From Nannobrachium achirus (Eukaryota; Chordata; Actinopteri; Myctophiformes; Myctophidae), in the NCBI GenBank assembly GCA_963921795.1, contig OY997641.1, positions 23,652,033 through 23,716,032 of the forward strand: DNA of 64,000 nucleotides, given 5' to 3'. The position numbers were made by a program, and so were the translations under genes. Each line of letters begins with the position of its first letter. Position 1 is the stretch's first letter. Of the stretch, positions 39,488-64,000 are shown in pieces. The notes beneath the pieces are model-generated. The model had not been told where the DNA came from, ran no database searches, and saw only the letters and a program-made list of their open reading frames with translations.

Positions 39488-39611
39488 TGTTTAATATACA
39501 TGAGGCCCCTGACAATTTTAGAGAAAACTGCTGCGCTCTTTGTTTTAGTTTAGCTGCAGGTGCTGAGGCCCCCTACAATTTACAAGATTATGTACTGTAT
39601 ATTATTTTGAC

Positions 39612-39690
39612 CCTTTCTCTCTGTCTCCCCCTCTCTCCCTCTCTCCCTCTCTCCCTTTATCTCTCTCTCTCCCTCTCTCTCTCTCTTTCA
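39612..39690. repeat. Pyrimidine-rich (CTCTC)n tract before an exon
   Basis: Low-complexity CT tract immediately upstream of the acceptor at 39691, probably serving as its polypyrimidine tract. Confidence 0.9.
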
Positions 39691-39691
39691 G

Positions 39692-40034
39692 TTAGCACCA
39701 GATGATGCGTGGAAGTGTCCGCACTGCATGCAGCTGCAACAGGGCATGGTGAAGATGAGTCTGTGGACTCTGCCCGACATACTCATCCTCCACCTGAAGC
39801 GTTTCCGCCAAGTGGGCGAGCGCCGGAACAAGCTGACGACACTGGTGCGCTTCCCCCTGGCCGGCCTGGATATGGCACCGCATGTGGTGAAACGCAGCCA
39901 TGGCACCCGGCCCCCTCTCCAGCCAGGCTCGTGGAAGCGGCCGGGACCTTCCGACTCGGCCTCCCCGGACTTCCTGTATGATCTGTATGCAGTGTGCAAC
40001 CATCACGGAGGGATGCACGGGGGGCACTACACAG
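39692..40034 (+). CDS. usp43: USP43 exon: second zinc CxxC and catalytic His box
   Basis: The exon is bounded by TTTCAG and GTGTGA. It encodes LAPDDAWKCPHCMQLQQGMV (the second CxxC of the USP zinc ribbon), then LPDILILHLKRFRQVGERRN, the core strand segment of USP domains. It ends with DFLYDLYAVCNHHGGMHGG and HYT. The NHHGGMHGGHYT segment is the His box; the His of GHYT is the expected catalytic histidine. The exon ends in phase 1. VGERRNKL and LDMAPHVVKRS are characteristic of USP43. No disabling change is visible, so the protease half seen here looks functional. A hAT-type element begins 29 bases beyond its donor. Confidence 0.96.
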
Positions 40035-40063
40035 GTGTGAATGATGCCACGTATATTCACATA

Positions 40064-40448
40064 CAGGCACGTGCACACATAGACATCAAAGGGGGCTTGA
40101 GCCCCTGCCCTTTTATCCGTCTGTATAAAGTCCAGACCATGAATGCAGTTTTTACTATGGTGATAGAAACGCAAATGCCTTCTTTCCATTACATAAATGA
40201 AGGCAGCGTGCAAGAGGATTGCCTTGTCCAAACTCTCCTGAACTTGAACGCAGCATCTTATGTTGAAAGAATTGCCCTCTCTGTGTTGAAGTCGAGCATC
40301 GAAAATAGCCGAGCTCCAAGCTCAAAACACGTTGCGTCGCAGCGCAGCGCGTTGTGAACTTGGAGGTCTGCTATTTTTGAGATTTTCACTAAAAGGCTCT
40401 TTTAGGAATTTCAGCGCCTGCCACTCTAACATTCTCTGCACGTCCCGG
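40064..40448. mobile_element. hAT-type miniature element with perfect 8-bp target duplication
   Basis: The flanks are TTCACATA (40056-40063 and 40449-40456). The left terminus is CAGGCACGTGCA and the right end TGCACGTCCCGG, with the last bases mutated. It is the sister of 8058-8505. It makes up most of a 601-base USP43 intron, starting 30 bases inside the donor, and contains a hairpin copy. Confidence 0.9.
40302..40378. repeat. Recurrent hairpin motif, copy in hAT element
   Basis: Left arm AAAATAGCCGAGCTCCAAGC, right arm AACTTGGAGGTCTGCTATTTTT. The inner stem differs from the 8363 copy (ACACGTTGCG against CGCAGCGCGTTGTG) but pairing is kept. Confidence 0.85.
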
Positions 40449-40635
40449 TTCACATACAACCCATGAAGGGTGAACGTATGAATCAAACGCAGTATTATAC
40501 TCTGTCACAATGGGAAGAACTGTATTTGTAAGGTCTCTGTTTTTGCATAAGCTCCACAGGACATACTGTATATTGACACCTTTTTCATCCATTATGCATG
40601 CTTTATCTGGTTTCCTTTCTACTTTGCCATCACAG

Positions 40636-40794
40636 CCTTCTGCAGGAACTCGGTAGACGGCCAGTGGTACAACTATGACGACAGCAGCGCAGAGCCGGTT
40701 CCCGAGGCGGAGGTGTGCACGCGAGGAGCATACATCCTGTTCTACCAGAGACGAAACACCATCCCCCCATGGTCTGCCAGCTCCTCAGTCACAG
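40636..40794 (+). CDS. usp43: USP43 exon: end of catalytic domain (YDD box)
   Basis: The exon is bounded by ATCACAG and GTTAGC. It completes an Ala codon, giving HYTAFCRNSVDGQWYNYDDS across the junction, then SAEPVPEAEVCTRGAYILFY and QRRNTIPPWSASSSVTG. The Asp of the YDD motif is the expected third catalytic or support residue in USPs, and GAYILFYxRR ends the domain. PPWSASSS is shared with human USP43. It ends in phase 1. Confidence 0.96.
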
Positions 40795-41405
40795 GTTAGC
40801 AGCATGGTCACCTACTGTAGCTGTGTTCAGGTAACAATTATGAAGAATCTGTACGAATTATGGCAGCCGTGGTATCAAGGTGTCTGAAGTGTGATTGCAG
40901 TACATACATCAGATTCCCACGAGCCAATAAAATGTTCTCTACTACTAATAAGAAGCAGCTTTATGTTCCTTCTTCTTGTCTGACAGATGGAATGAATAAC
41001 AGCTTACAATGCTAACTGGGGGTACTTTAAGTACATTTTGATGCCAATACTTTTGTACTTTTACTCAAGTACATTTTTTTTTACTCAAGCAACATTTTCC
41101 TCATGGAGCTACAAGTCCAGGTCAGGATTAAACCATGAACTCTCAGGACCCTTTAACCTAAATGGGACATGGTTTAAAACCATTATAAACTGAATGGGAC
41201 ATGGTATAAAACCATTATAAACTGAATGGGAGTATGGGACATGGTAGGAACATCCAGGCCGATACAAAATCAGGAATCAAATCCATTCTTTTTAACAATT
41301 CTAAATGACTTTGTAATTACCCGGTCTATATTCCAGGTAATATTTGGAACGAGGCCACAGTAGAAATCTTTTTTTTTTCTCTCTCTTGTTTTTCTTGCTC
41401 ATCAG
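40795..41405. other. USP43 intron: no gene seen
   Basis: A fragment of the AAGTACTT-rich element lies at about 41025-41095 and a short tandem of AACTGAATGGGACATGGTA type at 41155-41245. Confidence 0.5.
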
Positions 41406-41579
41406 GCTCCACTAGCTCGTCCACCTCGGACCACTGGCTGATCCGACTGAGGGGAGGCAGTAAGAGGGGCAGCCTGGGTTCTGCAGGATCCACAGTGTGC
41501 CCTGCTGGACCCACGCCCGCACCACATTCCCCCGAGCTGCCTGTGTTCCGGGATGAAGCTCCCAAAGCACTAGAGACAA
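41406..41579 (+). CDS. usp43: USP43 exon: linker after the catalytic domain
   Basis: The exon is bounded by CTCATCAG and GTGAGC. It encodes STSSSTSDHWLIRLRGGSKR and a Ser, Gly and Pro-rich stretch ending DEAPKALET, with one base of the next codon. GSTSSS(T/L)SDHWL(I/L)RL is diagnostic for USP43. The segment is predicted to be disordered. Confidence 0.94.
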
Positions 41580-41838
41580 GTGAGCAAAACACTGACACAG
41601 CATGTTATGTCATTCAGTAATCATACTGTACACAGAGATCATACACATATATCATATATTATATACTGTATATTAATGCATGTAAAGCATATAAATACTG
41701 TATATACTTATTATTTATTTATTTATATCTATCAAATGAGTTCCGTTTTCTCTTCATTTAAATAGGATAGTAGAGAGAGAGACAGAGTGTAGAAAGTGCA
41801 ACAAGGTATCCAGCTGCAATCAAAGCGGGCTACACATT

Positions 41839-42031
41839 CAGGGCCGTAGCGTGTCTAATCAGCGCTCTATGTGAGCTCTCTCGAATGCGCCTCTCTCCAC
41901 TCGCGTGCGCGCGCACGAGGTTTTCGGACGGGTTTGGGGCTGGTTTGGGTCCACTCCCTCTATTTCGGCGCCCCCTCTAGGATGGCGCTCTAGGCGGCCG
42001 CTTAGCTCGCCTATAGCTAGAAGCGGCCCTG
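41839..42031. mobile_element. Short hAT-type miniature element with perfect 8-bp target duplication
   Basis: TACACATT occurs on both sides (41831-41838 and 42032-42039). The ends CAGGGCCGTAGC and GCTAGAAGCGGCCCTG are inverted copies with a few differences. Its GC-rich body of 193 bases lies in the last USP43 intron. Confidence 0.88.
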
Positions 42032-42640
42032 TACACATTCTCACTCCCTGGTCCTAATATGGTAGCAATTTGGACAAAATATACTACGACACGAGGGAGT
42101 GCCGTTTCACTCCAAACTCATAGGATGGTGCGCCAGTAAAAACTAGTTAACACGGTAGCGCACCATCATAAGCTAACTGGCTGAGCAGTGAGCACGCGCC
42201 CGTGCCGAGCGGTGTTACTGACGCCTACTTCTGCCGACTCAGCGTATCGATTTTATACATCATGACTTCCCCATCAACATGTGACGCTTCAGGAAAGCCT
42301 ATCAAACATCTGACACTTGTTCACATGTTGCCCAGCCCAACTCATCTGCTATTTTAAAAAGTGTAGAATATTCTAGGAACATTTTAACAACACACCTCCT
42401 CCCACACCGGCTGGTTAGGCCCCAAAATAACAAACACCCGTTTGCGGCACACCTCACATCAATCTTGTTTTACCTTTGTATTGTTGTGCTCATGGTCTCT
42501 TTTGTTGAAGTACATTTTAGCTGATACTTTGTTCATCACCTTATATTATCATGTTCTTTATTTTATTTAAGCCTTATTTAAGTTCTTTGTTATTATCAGC
42601 CTGTGAAGCACTTTGAGACAAACTTTTATGAATTAACATT

Positions 42641-42901
42641 TCGTCATTGTCAGGCAGAAACCTCATATCGCCGAGTTTCAGATTTGTACATTTTTTCGTA
42701 AAGTAAAGCCCTGCTTCATCATACAAGAGTGTCCCACAAAACTAGTGAAAATAGCAGATCTATGAGCACACAGCACCTCGTGGTGCGAGGCATTGTGTGA
42801 TTGTAAATCGGCTATTTTCACCAGTTTAAATCATTTTTAAAATGATGAATTAAAAAAGAACAGTTTTGGACATACAAAGGTTTCCACCCGACAACAACGA
42901 T
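42641..42901. mobile_element. Family D miniature element, complete, with central hairpin
   Basis: The termini are TCGTCATTGTCAGGCAGAAACC and GGTTTCCACCCGACAACAACGA. The hairpin core 42748-42818 has left arm AAAATAGCAGATCTATGAGC, inner CCTCGTGGTGCGAGG, and right arm GATTGTAAATCGGCTATTTT. It ends only 33 bases before the last USP43 exon. Confidence 0.8.
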
Positions 42902-42934
42902 TTCCTCATTCACGGTCACTCTGTCTTGCTCTAG

Positions 42935-44103
42935 ATGGGTTTGTAGCCGAACCGTTTGTCCGGGGAACCCAGGGCAGGAGCGTGAGCATGAGGTCACCCA
43001 CCAAGCCCAAGGACACCCTGAGCAAGGTCCTGCCTCTGCGCTGGTCGTTCCGCTCCAAGGATCGCTCCAAGCATCCTGCGCCGGCCCGACCTGGGGAACT
43101 GGTGGAGTACCTGGAGTCAGGACGCCGGCCACGCTGCACCAAAGACCCCATCATTACTTTGGTGGCCACTCCGCCACAGGCGAAAGCCCCCACAAGAGCC
43201 TCTGAAGCTGGGGAGAGGGACCTGGGAAGCTCCCCCAGTGGCAGCAGCCTTAGCTGCGCGGACAGGCCCAGTTCAGACACATGTGACTCCCCCAAAATGC
43301 CAGAGGGACAGAGCAGGCCGGCTGGGGAGAGAAACATGACCAACAGCGGCCATGTTAAAAACAAGGATAACGGCTCACTGGTACAGAGGACCTCCAAGAG
43401 GGTTAGGCAGGACCAGGGCAGGACCCTGGACCTACACTCCCAGAGAGGGGCTATGTTGGGGGGGCACATCAGCCACAGTGCCCCCCCGAGCAGGGACTCC
43501 ACACTGAAGAGAGTTAAGGTCCAGTCAGGGCTGACACCAAGGGGTCAGAGGGACTTATTACAGATGATCATGAACCCTGAGGAGAAGAAAGGGCTCAGGG
43601 GGGGAGAGGGAAGGAGTCAGGACAGCCTCTTGTCCATTCTGAAAACTGGCTTCACGAGAAAGGATATTCAAAGGACACCCGGCAAGGGACTTGACAGACG
43701 CATGAATGGCCACGGCCAGCCGGGAAAGGCGGTAAACGGTCATTTGGCGAGGATGTCTCTCTCCAACGGAACCCTGACTGCGATCGTGTCGACGGACGAC
43801 AAGAAAGCCAGTGGTTTCCGGAGGAGTGACATCCATAACGGCAAAGCGCTGCTGGTCAATGGAAAGGTCGCGAGTCAAGGCGCTGCCGACATCAAGCGTG
43901 CACACAGCTCCAGCAACATCCACACAAAGCTGGACCTGACCCTGCGCAGGTGTGCCTCCCTGCAGAGGAACGGGGACATAGCAGCCCCTCCAGGCCATCG
44001 CAGCCTGCTGTCAGAGAAGCCCAGTTATGCCACCCTGCAGCGGACGCGATACAGCACCACCTCCCTGGGCAGACAGAGACCCGTTCCAGAGTCTTGTTTC
44101 TGA
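42935..44103 (+). CDS. usp43: USP43 terminal coding exon, C-terminal tail and stop
   Basis: Acceptor TTGCTCTAG at 42934; the exon completes an Asn codon and runs in one open frame for 389 codons to TGA at 44101-44103. It encodes GFVAEPFVRGTQGRSVSMRS, then the basic block LPLRWSFRSKDRSKH and ELVEYLESGRRPR, a long Ser, Gly, Arg and Lys-rich region, and the terminus YSTTSLGRQRPVPESCF. Those four blocks line up with human USP43 and set it apart from USP31. The tail has no fold that I recognise and is probably disordered with phosphorylation sites. Human USP43 has been reported to act on histone H2B and to bind 14-3-3 proteins; that is knowledge of the family, not seen here. The 198-residue minus frame over this exon is a shadow. 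Confidence 0.96.
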
Positions 44104-57700: not shown

Positions 57701-58384
57701 ATAACTATCAGTCACAGTGACTACTGGCCAATCACAGCGGGTCTCCAGCGGTGGTATCCATAAGCACGGGGTGGGTGGTTGCGCATGCAGTGTCAGGGTG
57801 TCAAGGAAGCAAATATCACCAATTACATTTCCACTCCACTCCTTTGTGATGAATACAAGTGTATCTTTTCTGCGATATTGTTGAATGAATAATGATTCTT
57901 CATGTTAAGAAAGGGCTAAAACAATTAGTACTGCCCCCTCCCCCAACATCTGCACCATGGGTCTGCTTGAAATGTACTGCTTTTCACCAGTGCACAGTTT
58001 ATTTTTGTATGCAACACTTTATTGACATAATTTATTACACTGTTTGTCTGGTCCGGGCCCCACCAGGGGTCCAAATGGATCCTTACGGGTCTGTAACTGA
58101 GAGTGTACAAATGTAACAATTTTCTTTGGGACTCCAATCTACGGGGTAGGACAGGTTCCAATGTACGCTCTCAGAGTTACAGACCTGTAGGGGTCCATTT
58201 GGTCCATTTGGTCCCCAGCATTGATGTTGAGATCCAGTGTTTAATTATAGTCACATGTACAATTATTGAGTTTAACTGAAACCTTTGGAGGCAGATATGG
58301 TGAGTAGTATTGAATGATCTTACAACACAAAAATATACATCTGTGTTTAACCAGTCAAACCCCATGAAACATCTGCACAGTACA
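57701..58384. other. Intergenic DNA: no gene seen
   Basis: The segments 58050-58115 and 58160-58210 form a short inverted pair (GTAACTGAGAGTGTACAAATG near GTACGCTCTCAGAGTTACAG), perhaps another small foldback. Confidence 0.4.
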
Positions 58385-58769
58385 TGTGGCGGAGAGAGTC
58401 GCAGCTCCAGCCTGAAGCCTCAAAAGTCTAGTATCTGCCCTCGTGCCATAAGGATATCCCTTTGGAGTGATGGTTAAGATATTGGACTTTCACGCGGGAG
58501 ACCCAGGTTCGAAGCCGAGTGGGGAGGTTTGGATCACCTCCGTTACATTGGTGCCGTGACCCGGATCCGGGCTTCCCTGTAGGAGGAAGTCAAAGGGGGG
58601 TGAGTGTGGCGGAGAGAGTCGCAGCCCCAGCCTGAAGCCTCAAAAAAGTGTAGTATGTGCCCTCGTTCCATAAGGATATCCCTCTGGAGTGATGGTTAAG
58701 ATATTGGACTTTCACGCGGGAGACCCGGGTTCGAAGCCGAGTGGGGAGTTTTGGAACACCTCCGTTACA
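58385..58769 (+). mobile_element. TRIM-like mini LTR element with tRNA-like promoter in its LTRs
   Basis: Two direct repeats of 163 and 165 bases (58385-58547, 58605-58769) both begin TGTGGCGGAGAGAGTCGCAG and end CACCTCCGTTACA, so they have TG...CA ends. The 57-base interior starts TTGGTGCCGTGACCCGGATC, which looks like a retroelement primer binding site, and ends CAAAGGGGGGTGAG, which looks like a polypurine tract abutting the second repeat. Each repeat contains GATGGTTAAGATATTGGACT and CACGCGGGAGACC with GGTTCGAAGCC, i.e. tRNA-like A and B boxes. The repeats differ at roughly ten places. No clear target duplication was found (flanks GTACA and CATAC). A chance tandem of tRNA-derived SINEs is the alternative. 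Confidence 0.7.
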
Positions 58770-58835
58770 CATACAACACACATTCATGTTAAGTTAACGT
58801 AACGTCTGATGAAGCCACACAATAAAAAACATTGG

Positions 58836-58895
58836 TGCGACCGTCAGGTCGCAGTTAGTATCAAAATGTCCACCCTCATGTCTGTCCGTTAGCCA
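58836..58895 (+). mobile_element. Family A terminus fragment
   Basis: GCGACCGTCAGGTCGCAGTTAG followed by TATCAAAATGTCCACC is the left end of family A; the remainder is absent. Confidence 0.6.
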
Positions 58896-58928
58896 TTAGG
58901 GTGTTTTACTTGTGTTCATTTCACTCTG

Positions 58929-59123
58929 GCCCCTTTTCCACCAAAATAACTTTGGTTCTAGAACTGGTTCCGTTCTAGATGCTTGGAACCTTGGGTGGTG
59001 CTTTCACGGAACCGGCGTCCATTTTTTGGTTCCAGTTCCGAACCAACTTTTAGGGTTTGAACTAATTCATTTTCAGTGGCAACACTCTGAACTTAACTGG
59101 TTTAACCCTGGTGGAAAAGGGGC
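58929..59123. mobile_element. Miniature inverted-repeat element (GCCCCTTTTCCACCA ends)
   Basis: The ends GGCCCCTTTTCCACCA and TGGTGGAAAAGGGGC are inverted copies; the interior contains GGTTCTAGAACTGGTTCC and GGTTCCAGTTCCGAACC palindromes. A common type of miniature element in fish. Confidence 0.75.
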
Positions 59124-59452
59124 ATCTGAGTAGCCTGCTTCCAGACCATAGACCCTGCCCACTCTCAGAGTGGACTGTTTCTCTGGTCTGGAGCTGAGTA
59201 CAGAATCGGCAGTTTAGCAGCCAAAAACTGCGGCTGATCCAATGAGCGCAGGGGGTGGGGGCGGGTTTAACGAATATCCAATCCGTGCAGCAGTTGAAAC
59301 GATTCAAACAAAGTTCACACACACAGGCAGGCTGAGGCAGGCACACACACACGGGTCCGCATCAGAGTTCCGACGGTCCGGTATTCCGACACTAAAACTA
59401 TAACCCTAACTCTACCCCCAACCCTAAACCTAACCTCAGTAAACCTTACCTC

Positions 59453-62646: not shown

Positions 62647-63644
62647 TCAGAGTAGTTCCCTGGATGACGGGGACTGATGAGACACATCTGTTGCCGTCCT
62701 CAGAGTCATACCATCAGCCATGACCTCCGGTTCCACCCGGAACACCCGGGGTGTTTGCCGAATCGCTACGATGAACTGTCTCTTAAAGGTCTCACTCAAC
62801 ACGATGTAGAGGAATGGGTTAATGCAGCTGTTGGCGTAGCCCATGCTAATGGCAATATTGTAAGCGTACAGGAAAGCAAACGACGGCCGCTCGATACCTA
62901 GGTGTGCCAGCTGCAGGATGTAATAGGGAGCCCAGCAGATGAAAAAGGCCAGGCATATAGCCACCGCCATGCGGGTCACCTTGCGTGTACGTGTCCTCAG
63001 ACTGCGCTGAGGCAGGGGGGCCACTGTGGCTGACATGTTCTGTAGGATTTTGGTGAAGCCCACGCAGATGACCACCAGAGGCAGAGCAAAGGCCAAGAAG
63101 AACTGGTAGAGGGTGAACCAGTATTTGTCCGTGGTGGGATGGGGCAGCAGCAGGGCGCAGCTGACAGAACCGTCCTGGAGGGGCATGAGACCAGCGTACA
63201 TCCATACCGGGGTGATGGACACCAGAGAAAACAGCCACACCAGTGCCACCGCTATCTCTGCCATGAGGGGGGTTCGAACATGGTTGAAGCGTATGGGGTG
63301 GACTGTTGCCAGGTAGCGGTCAAATGTCATGACAGTGAGAATGTACGTGCTGACGATCTGACTGTTGGAATCGAGCGCGGTGATGACGGTGCACATTGTA
63401 CCACCGAAGCACCAGGAGCCATTGCCCACGAGCTGGTGGATGAGGAAGGGCATGCCGAGGAGGAAGAGGAGGTCCACGATGGATAAACTGAAGATGAAGA
63501 TGTCAGGTGCTGTCTGCTGTGCCCAGAACTTGGTCTTCTTGACGATGGTGTAGATGACGATGCAGTTTCCAATTATCCCAAAGACGCAGATGACGCCAAA
63601 GATGCTCGGCATGAGCACATTATCATAGGACTGGTGGACAGTTT
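62647..63644 (-). CDS. mchr1: Melanin-concentrating hormone receptor 1-like GPCR, main coding exon
   Basis: This is a class A G-protein-coupled receptor for melanin-concentrating hormone, expected in the plasma membrane of neurons. The frame from ATG at 63687 gives 346 residues with seven hydrophobic segments. Visible landmarks (that numbering): N41 in IIGN, D72 in VDLLFLLGMP, C99 and C177 for the disulfide, D106 in ITALDSNSQ (the ligand-contacting Asp of MCH receptors), DRY at 123-125, CWAPYY at 251-256 and NPFLY at 290-294. ITPVWMYA, YWFTLYQFFLAFALP and ISMGYANSCINPF closely match human MCHR1. The first 14 residues are probably intron: CCTTTAATTCATCTCCACCAG before AAACTGTCCACC is a good acceptor, so I place the exon 5' end at 63644 (phase 1) with an N-terminal exon beyond the window. 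A single-exon start at 63687 is the alternative. Fish have more than one mchr1 copy; I cannot tell which this is. Confidence 0.92.
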
Positions 63645-64000
63645 CTGGTGGAGATGAATTAAAGGGGGAAAGAATAATTATTGACATACAGACAGACAGA
63701 ATGTTACTGTAGGTGTTATTTTGAAATGACTTTCAAGTGGTTATTTCTAGTACTGCAACACAATTTAACCGTGCGTTAATAATTTTAGGACAGTGCTAAC
63801 ATCTGGCAGGATCAAATCTGGGACCTTTATAATTAGGTTGGCCTTCTTCTTATGTGTGTGACTGTGTGTGTGTGAGTGCATGCGTGCGTGCGTGCGTGCG
63901 TGTGTGTGTGTGTCTTGTCTGCTTTTTCTTATGTTACTGCAGTTGATTAATTTTGACCCTCCTGGTCAAAAGAAGTTACAGACAACTATTGTACAGAAAT
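63645..64000. other. Probable intron of the MCHR1-like gene, with (TG)/(TGCG) array
   Basis: On the minus strand this precedes the proposed acceptor. A GTGT/GCGT compound repeat lies at about 63855-63912. No N-terminal exon is visible. Confidence 0.6.

Follow-up and report, generated by a model that had tools for sequence, protein, structure and literature searches.

TRIMs (terminal-repeat retrotransposons in miniature) with tRNA-like LTRs have been named Helenus and, together with Cassandra and Ajax, form the group TRIMp3 (Kojima 2024, PMC10886601). According to the parts of that paper on which we draw throughout, Helenus elements are gene-less, 311–1263 bp long and bounded by two LTRs; box B with GGTTC is conserved, and box A contains TRGCY and YGG in most, not all, members. 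Animal Helenus are associated with 4-bp duplications and tandem arrays, with tRNA-His, -Leu or -Lys as the vertebrate primers, a helper Gypsy sharing their primer site has been inferred, and a tRNA-derived SINE was suggested as the source of the tRNA stretch (PMC10886601). Zebrafish has 5,575 Helenus LTRs and 2,618 interiors, and fish families related to the zebrafish LTR-11_DR are described from Cypriniformes, a catfish and milkfish; the string 'Clupei' is absent from these parts of the text (PMC10886601). Cassandra of plants and Ajax of nemerteans are likewise TRIMs with a Pol III-type promoter in their LTRs. Ajax is characterised by a 5S-derived promoter, a tRNA-Leu primer and 5-bp duplications, and in these same portions of the paper termination is mentioned only twice, both times with regard to Cassandra (PMC10886601). 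Judged by title, a literature search returned no further work on Helenus, TRIMp3 or LTR-11_DR.

The element described here lies in a window of 64,000 nucleotides (the whole stretch of DNA that was analysed) from Nannobrachium achirus. The original prediction had been made in the belief that no counterpart was described from fish, which is contradicted by Helenus (Kojima 2024, PMC10886601). TRIMs with tRNA-like LTRs have been in print since 2024; the present copy is real, its kind is not new. On re-reading, the two TG...CA repeats and the 57-base interior matched the predicted coordinates, lengths and letters exactly, and both the primer-binding-like start of the interior and the purine tract are present, with TGAG parting the tract from the 3' LTR (Table 1). 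TGGTTAAG, CACGCGGGAGACC and GGTTCGAAGCC occur in both repeats. A and B box-like motifs, too, are held by both repeats as had been proposed, except that the A box, judged by the consensus, fits better at TGGAGTGATGG than at the proposed TGGTTAAG.

Table 1. Features of the element copy in the window
Feature	Position	Strand	Basis
5' LTR, TG...CA, 163 bp	58385..58547	+	identical boundaries in other copies, 4-bp duplications outside them
3' LTR, TG...CA, 165 bp	58605..58769	+	sequence comparison of both repeats
interior, 57 bp	58548..58604	+	57 bp in 40/42 units, nearly invariant
primer-binding site, tRNA-His	58549..58566	+	18/18 bases complementary to own tRNA-His 3' end plus CCA
polypurine tract AAAGGGGGG	58592..58600	+	followed by TGAG (4 nt), then 3' LTR
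tRNA-derived stretch, 5' LTR	58457..58526	+	best match own tRNA-Asp, local alignment score 46
tRNA-derived stretch, 3' LTR	58681..58748	+	score 51 against own tRNA-Asp
A box-like TGGAGTGATGG, 5' LTR	58463..58473	+	consensus and PMC10886601
A box-like TGGAGTGATGG, 3' LTR	58685..58695	+	sequence
B box-like GGTTCGAAGCC, 5' LTR	58506..58516	+	exact form in 62/84 LTRs
B box-like GGTTCGAAGCC, 3' LTR	58728..58738	+	sequence

With Helenus, as far as the cited parts describe it, the family has in common the TRIM form with tRNA-like LTRs, 4-bp duplications, a tRNA-His primer, a polypurine tract and tandem arrays (PMC10886601). Six Helenus features are found: the short, gene-less form with two LTRs (385 bp), the tRNA-derived stretch in the LTR, GGTTC, the primer site, the polypurine tract and the 4-bp duplications. 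The A box here reads TGGAG...TGG, in which YGG is present and TRGCY, the form given for most members only (PMC10886601), is not seen. We conclude that the present family is another member of Helenus, placed there by described features and not by the letters of LTR-11_DR. The LTRs of the window copy are 94% alike (8 mismatches and one 2-base indel); the copy is preceded by TACA and followed by CATA, with no exact target duplication, and its interior differs from the majority at two positions, where 4/42 and 2/42 units agree with it. Because of the eight LTR mismatches and the missing duplication this copy may be old, or the recombination product of two copies.

The host genome comprises 1,658,514,493 bases in 564 contigs, 24 of them of chromosome size. 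With the 385-bp query at least 45 matches were obtained from the best 40 of 2,516 candidates scored, so that the arrangement in the window is not due to chance; the 5' LTR alone gave at least 65 matches (best 40 of 1,952 candidates scored). Exact 30-base junctions of LTR and primer site number 461 genome-wide (reversed control 0) and exact 17-base LTR ends 1,534 (control 0); a longer, 31-base LTR-end pattern was too specific, with 6 matches. Among the 66 LTR ends listed for contig C1, 20 have a same-strand partner 150–260 bp off, 16 continue into an exact junction with the primer site, and for 37 neither applies; these last may be solo LTRs or LTRs with mutated partners and do not amount to a count of solo LTRs. 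On contig C4 (76.7 Mb), 18 of the 36 exact junctions listed fall within 71.9–74.9 Mb, near the contig end, and three junctions near 73.478 Mb are spaced 220 bp. The B-box pattern had no match in one viral and one prokaryote contig collection, nor had the primer-site pattern in the viral one, results that are silent on other fish. All detailed statistics given below come from loci L001–L076, the best matches to the window, and are biased toward intact and similar copies. A search for many copies with two LTRs, solo LTRs and 4–6-base target duplications had been proposed as a check, and two-LTR copies, solo LTRs and 4-bp target duplications were all found.

When chains of LTRs were told apart by their 60- and 100-base flanks, 58 remained, of which 39 have two LTRs, 15 one, three have three and one has four. 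Exact 4-bp target duplications border 43 of these 58 chains, compared with 8.5% of 2,000 draws of randomly paired flanks. They are distributed over all chain types (two-LTR 30/39, single 9/15, three-LTR 3/3, four-LTR 1/1), giving nine solo LTRs with a target duplication, and the chains of three and four LTRs make up the four tandem arrays. The 15 chains without an exact duplication are nine two-LTR chains, including the window copy, and six single LTRs, which are broken or interrupted pieces; two of the six are the halves of locus L049, parted by some 1.1 kb of inserted DNA. This insert (approximately 1738–2825 of L049) sits 17 bp into the 3' LTR, and its reverse-strand open frames resemble, by eye, a non-LTR retrotransposon. 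Two of the 58 chains, both at L020 and 1,280 bp apart, have identical 20-base flanks and may represent one insertion within a duplicated segment. A smaller set of 56 chains, told apart by 20-base flanks, which merges two chains, gave 41/56 duplications against 8.6% at random. Shift controls on this set found 0 duplications for one base, 10 and 8 for two, 0 and 1 for three, 8 and 6 for four, and 1 and 0 for five, a pattern expected of alternating targets. In the same set YRYR is found at 28 of the 41 duplicated tetramers compared with 108 of 1,189 flank tetramers (9%), and the alternation of pyrimidine and purine reaches beyond the duplication on both sides. Insect Gypsy elements with 4-bp duplications show a similar target preference; Cassandra makes 5-bp duplications, compared with 4 bp here.

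A comparison of the 18 bases after the first LTR with tRNA 3' ends had been suggested, and the site at 58549–58566 proved complementary, 18/18, to the 3' end of the host's own tRNA-His genes (L112, L114 and L115) with CCA added. The best tRNA-His matches of the host share 97% identity with the human form, from which they differ within the primer-site stretch; it is the host's version that the element's primer site fits, and the human version of the site (19 bases, exact) has a single match in the genome. Telling LTR-interior-LTR units apart by 20-base keys left 42, with an interior of exactly 57 bp in 40 of them. The LTRs of one unit diverge by 1.8% on average (median 1.2%; no mismatch in 7/42 pairs, gaps uncounted) and those of different units by 3.8%, as expected when one template yields both LTRs. 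At the border of interior and 3' LTR, 38/42 units read GGGGGGTGAG|TGTGGCGG, with TGAG between the polypurine tract and the LTR. The plus-strand primer would thus extend four bases beyond the tract, or else these four bases are removed by the integrase.

From the 4-bp duplications, the solo repeats and the 18/18 tRNA-His primer site it follows that this is an LTR element, moved by tRNA-primed reverse transcription and an integrase, and not a tandem SINE. A tandem (dimeric) SINE mobilised by a LINE would explain the tRNA-like stretch with its A and B box-like motifs, and tandem forms do exist, but neither exact 4-bp duplications at fixed TG...CA ends together with solo LTRs nor a conserved interior with an 18/18 tRNA-His primer site are in keeping with it, and its probability is close to nil. 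We rejected it on the LTR anatomy, the solo LTRs, the conserved interior and the 4-bp duplications. Tandem units without the interior, or a lack of solo LTRs, had been named beforehand as the pattern speaking for such a SINE; in the units read here the interior is kept, and solo LTRs are present. tRNA-derived SINEs (SINE2) resemble the present element in their tRNA-derived promoter, here a putative one, but, unlike it, are spread by LINEs and possess no LTRs, primer site or integrase-type 4-bp duplications. The predicted animal TRIM whose LTRs contain a tRNA-like stretch is borne out by the two-LTR copies, solo LTRs, 4-bp duplications and tRNA-His primer site. What the present analysis adds is a controlled check, in a fish, that TRIMs of the tRNA-promoter type spread by the LTR route, through duplications, solo LTRs, divergence of LTR pairs and the 18/18 tRNA-His site.

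The relationship of the LTR stretch to tRNA exceeds chance: aligned with the host's own tRNA-Asp, the 5' LTR stretch scores 46 (best of 500 shuffles 33) and that of the 3' LTR 51 (best of 300 shuffles 32). Five tRNAs were compared: Asp and His, both taken from the host genome, and Val, Glu and Gly. Among 84 LTRs the best-scoring one is Asp in 54, Val in 17, Glu in 10 and Gly in 3, with margins so small that the assignment to tRNA-Asp is only a lead; in the cited parts the figure of fish Helenus shows an alignment with human tRNA-Val instead (PMC10886601). In 62 of the 84 LTRs the B box has precisely the form GGTTCGAAGCC, and it is recognisable in 81 (GGTTC in 79, GGTTT in 2; 3 unrecognised by the script), an A box-like GGAGTGATGGT or GGAGTAATGGT occurs in 70 (7 unrecognised by the script), and the A-to-B spacing is 42 in 73. 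tRNA detection on the LTR had been proposed as a check. ARAGORN reported no tRNA gene in the window, and a relaxed run called only an implausible tRNA-Ile of 91–93 nt in both LTRs, for which reason we dismiss a working tRNA gene. A 5S or other Rfam family was dismissed as well, the single hit within 57900–59200 being far below the gathering score, and no 5S match appeared in this interval at E up to 1. Cassandra differs in this respect, with a 5S rRNA promoter and a terminator in its LTR (PMC10886601), compared with a tRNA-type stretch without a 5S match here. The stretch is best read as a promoter or the relic of one, not as a tRNA. Of the 40 tRNA-Asp matches listed for the genome, 39 lie at C16:3.87–4.46 Mb, many of them 1.26–1.39 kb apart and all identical to the query, forming tandem tRNA gene arrays.

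Could the tRNA-like stretch then be a mere passenger, which came with a SINE into the LTR of an ancestor and no longer works as a promoter in what is an ordinary Pol II TRIM? In agreement with this, the tRNA-like RNA shows no folding beyond chance (z -1.0), and over 99 LTRs the share of the majority letter is 0.955 in the A-box region, 0.979 in the B box and 0.975 in the whole LTR, so that neither box clearly stands out in conservation from the remaining LTR, the A-box region in particular being no better kept than the rest. Yet neither AATAAA/ATTAAA nor a TATAAA-like box is found in any of the 42 units, the B box and the A-to-B spacing persist in the large majority of LTRs, and conserved boxes are described in Helenus of other phyla (PMC10886601, in the parts cited). 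We therefore regard a Pol II TRIM as rather improbable.

Our preferred reading, to which we assign a probability of roughly 0.85, is a TRIM of the Helenus kind with a life cycle that would depend on Pol III, tRNA-His and a borrowed integrase. Transcription by Pol III from the tRNA-derived stretch we infer from the letters of the LTRs. The stretch of the 5' LTR would recruit Pol III, transcription would start near LTR position 65–75, cross the interior and the 3' LTR, and might stop at a T-run that happens to lie in the flank. The first DNA strand would be primed by tRNA-His, and the some 90–100 nt of it copied up to the 5' end of the RNA would then pair with the 3' LTR. The second strand would start from the polypurine tract, and insertion would be the work of an integrase from a putative Ty3/Gypsy-type element, with a preference for alternating pyrimidine-purine targets.

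These copies raise a testable question, namely how Pol III transcription would be terminated in LTRs so poor in terminators. TTTT follows the B box in one of 99 LTRs, namely the window's own 3' LTR, and is missing altogether from 38 of the 42 units, so that any Pol III transcript made from them would end outside the element. Past the 3' LTR the first TTTT is 12 to 360 bases off in 37 of the 42 units, and in the other 5 there is none within 400 bases (inner units of arrays included). Avoidance of terminators by selection is not supported, as TTTT is also missing from 56% of the sequences obtained when LTR and interior were shuffled by dinucleotides (20 of the 42 units shuffled). A more far-reaching proposal holds that the LTRs work without a Pol III terminator of their own, that the stretch from the start to the LTR end, and no short R region, would mediate the first strand transfer within the 3' LTR, and that a second class of tRNA-His sites, ending GCGTTACA, would represent a Gypsy helper with no more than the integrase end and the primer site in common. 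We consider this combination speculative and, on balance, unlikely. Read-through without a terminator and strand transfer over the whole stretch would set the present LTRs apart from Cassandra and, if true, terminator-less LTRs and a helper with GCGTTACA would add new details to a kind already known.

The search for a helper used a pattern that excludes most junctions of the present family and yielded 87 further tRNA-His sites, some of them clearly mutated Helenus. In 7 of the 59 sites listed with letters, GCGTTACAA precedes the tRNA-His site, giving an LTR end like that of Helenus (examples at C8:30890561-30890586 and C13:40851799-40851824). This class is possibly the helper, or another TRIM family whose LTRs end in a similar way. 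No integrase or gag match was seen, by eye, within 100 kb of the seven sites (best 150 of 2,208 integrase and 150 of 240 gag candidates), 30 integrase loci (L081–L110) contain no Helenus end or tract motif and no tRNA-His primer site, and a helper Gypsy with the same primer site was not found among the integrase, gag and tRNA-His site listings. These data also bear on the idea that the element arose recently by internal deletion from a full-length Gypsy whose same or very similar LTRs still exist in the host genome. The 87 other primer sites, a share of which is mutated Helenus, and the recurrent class with GCGTTACAA, close to the Helenus end CGTTACA, are what one would expect of it; but the truncated loci L058, L060, L067 and L076 and the interrupted L049 show no Gypsy coding beside the LTR (open frames, by eye), and all seven GCGTTACAA sites are more than 100 kb from any listed integrase or gag match. 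Such an origin appears quite improbable.

Other repeats surround the window copy. Just upstream, at 58068–58205, lies a palindromic MITE-like repeat whose 36-nt arms are 83% complementary, and downstream, at 58929–59123, a short MITE-like stretch with perfect 15-bp inverted ends GCCCCTTTTCCACCA. The window further contains two open frames that appear to resemble a melanin-concentrating hormone receptor (62647–63732, minus strand) and a ubiquitin-specific protease (39611–44103, plus strand).
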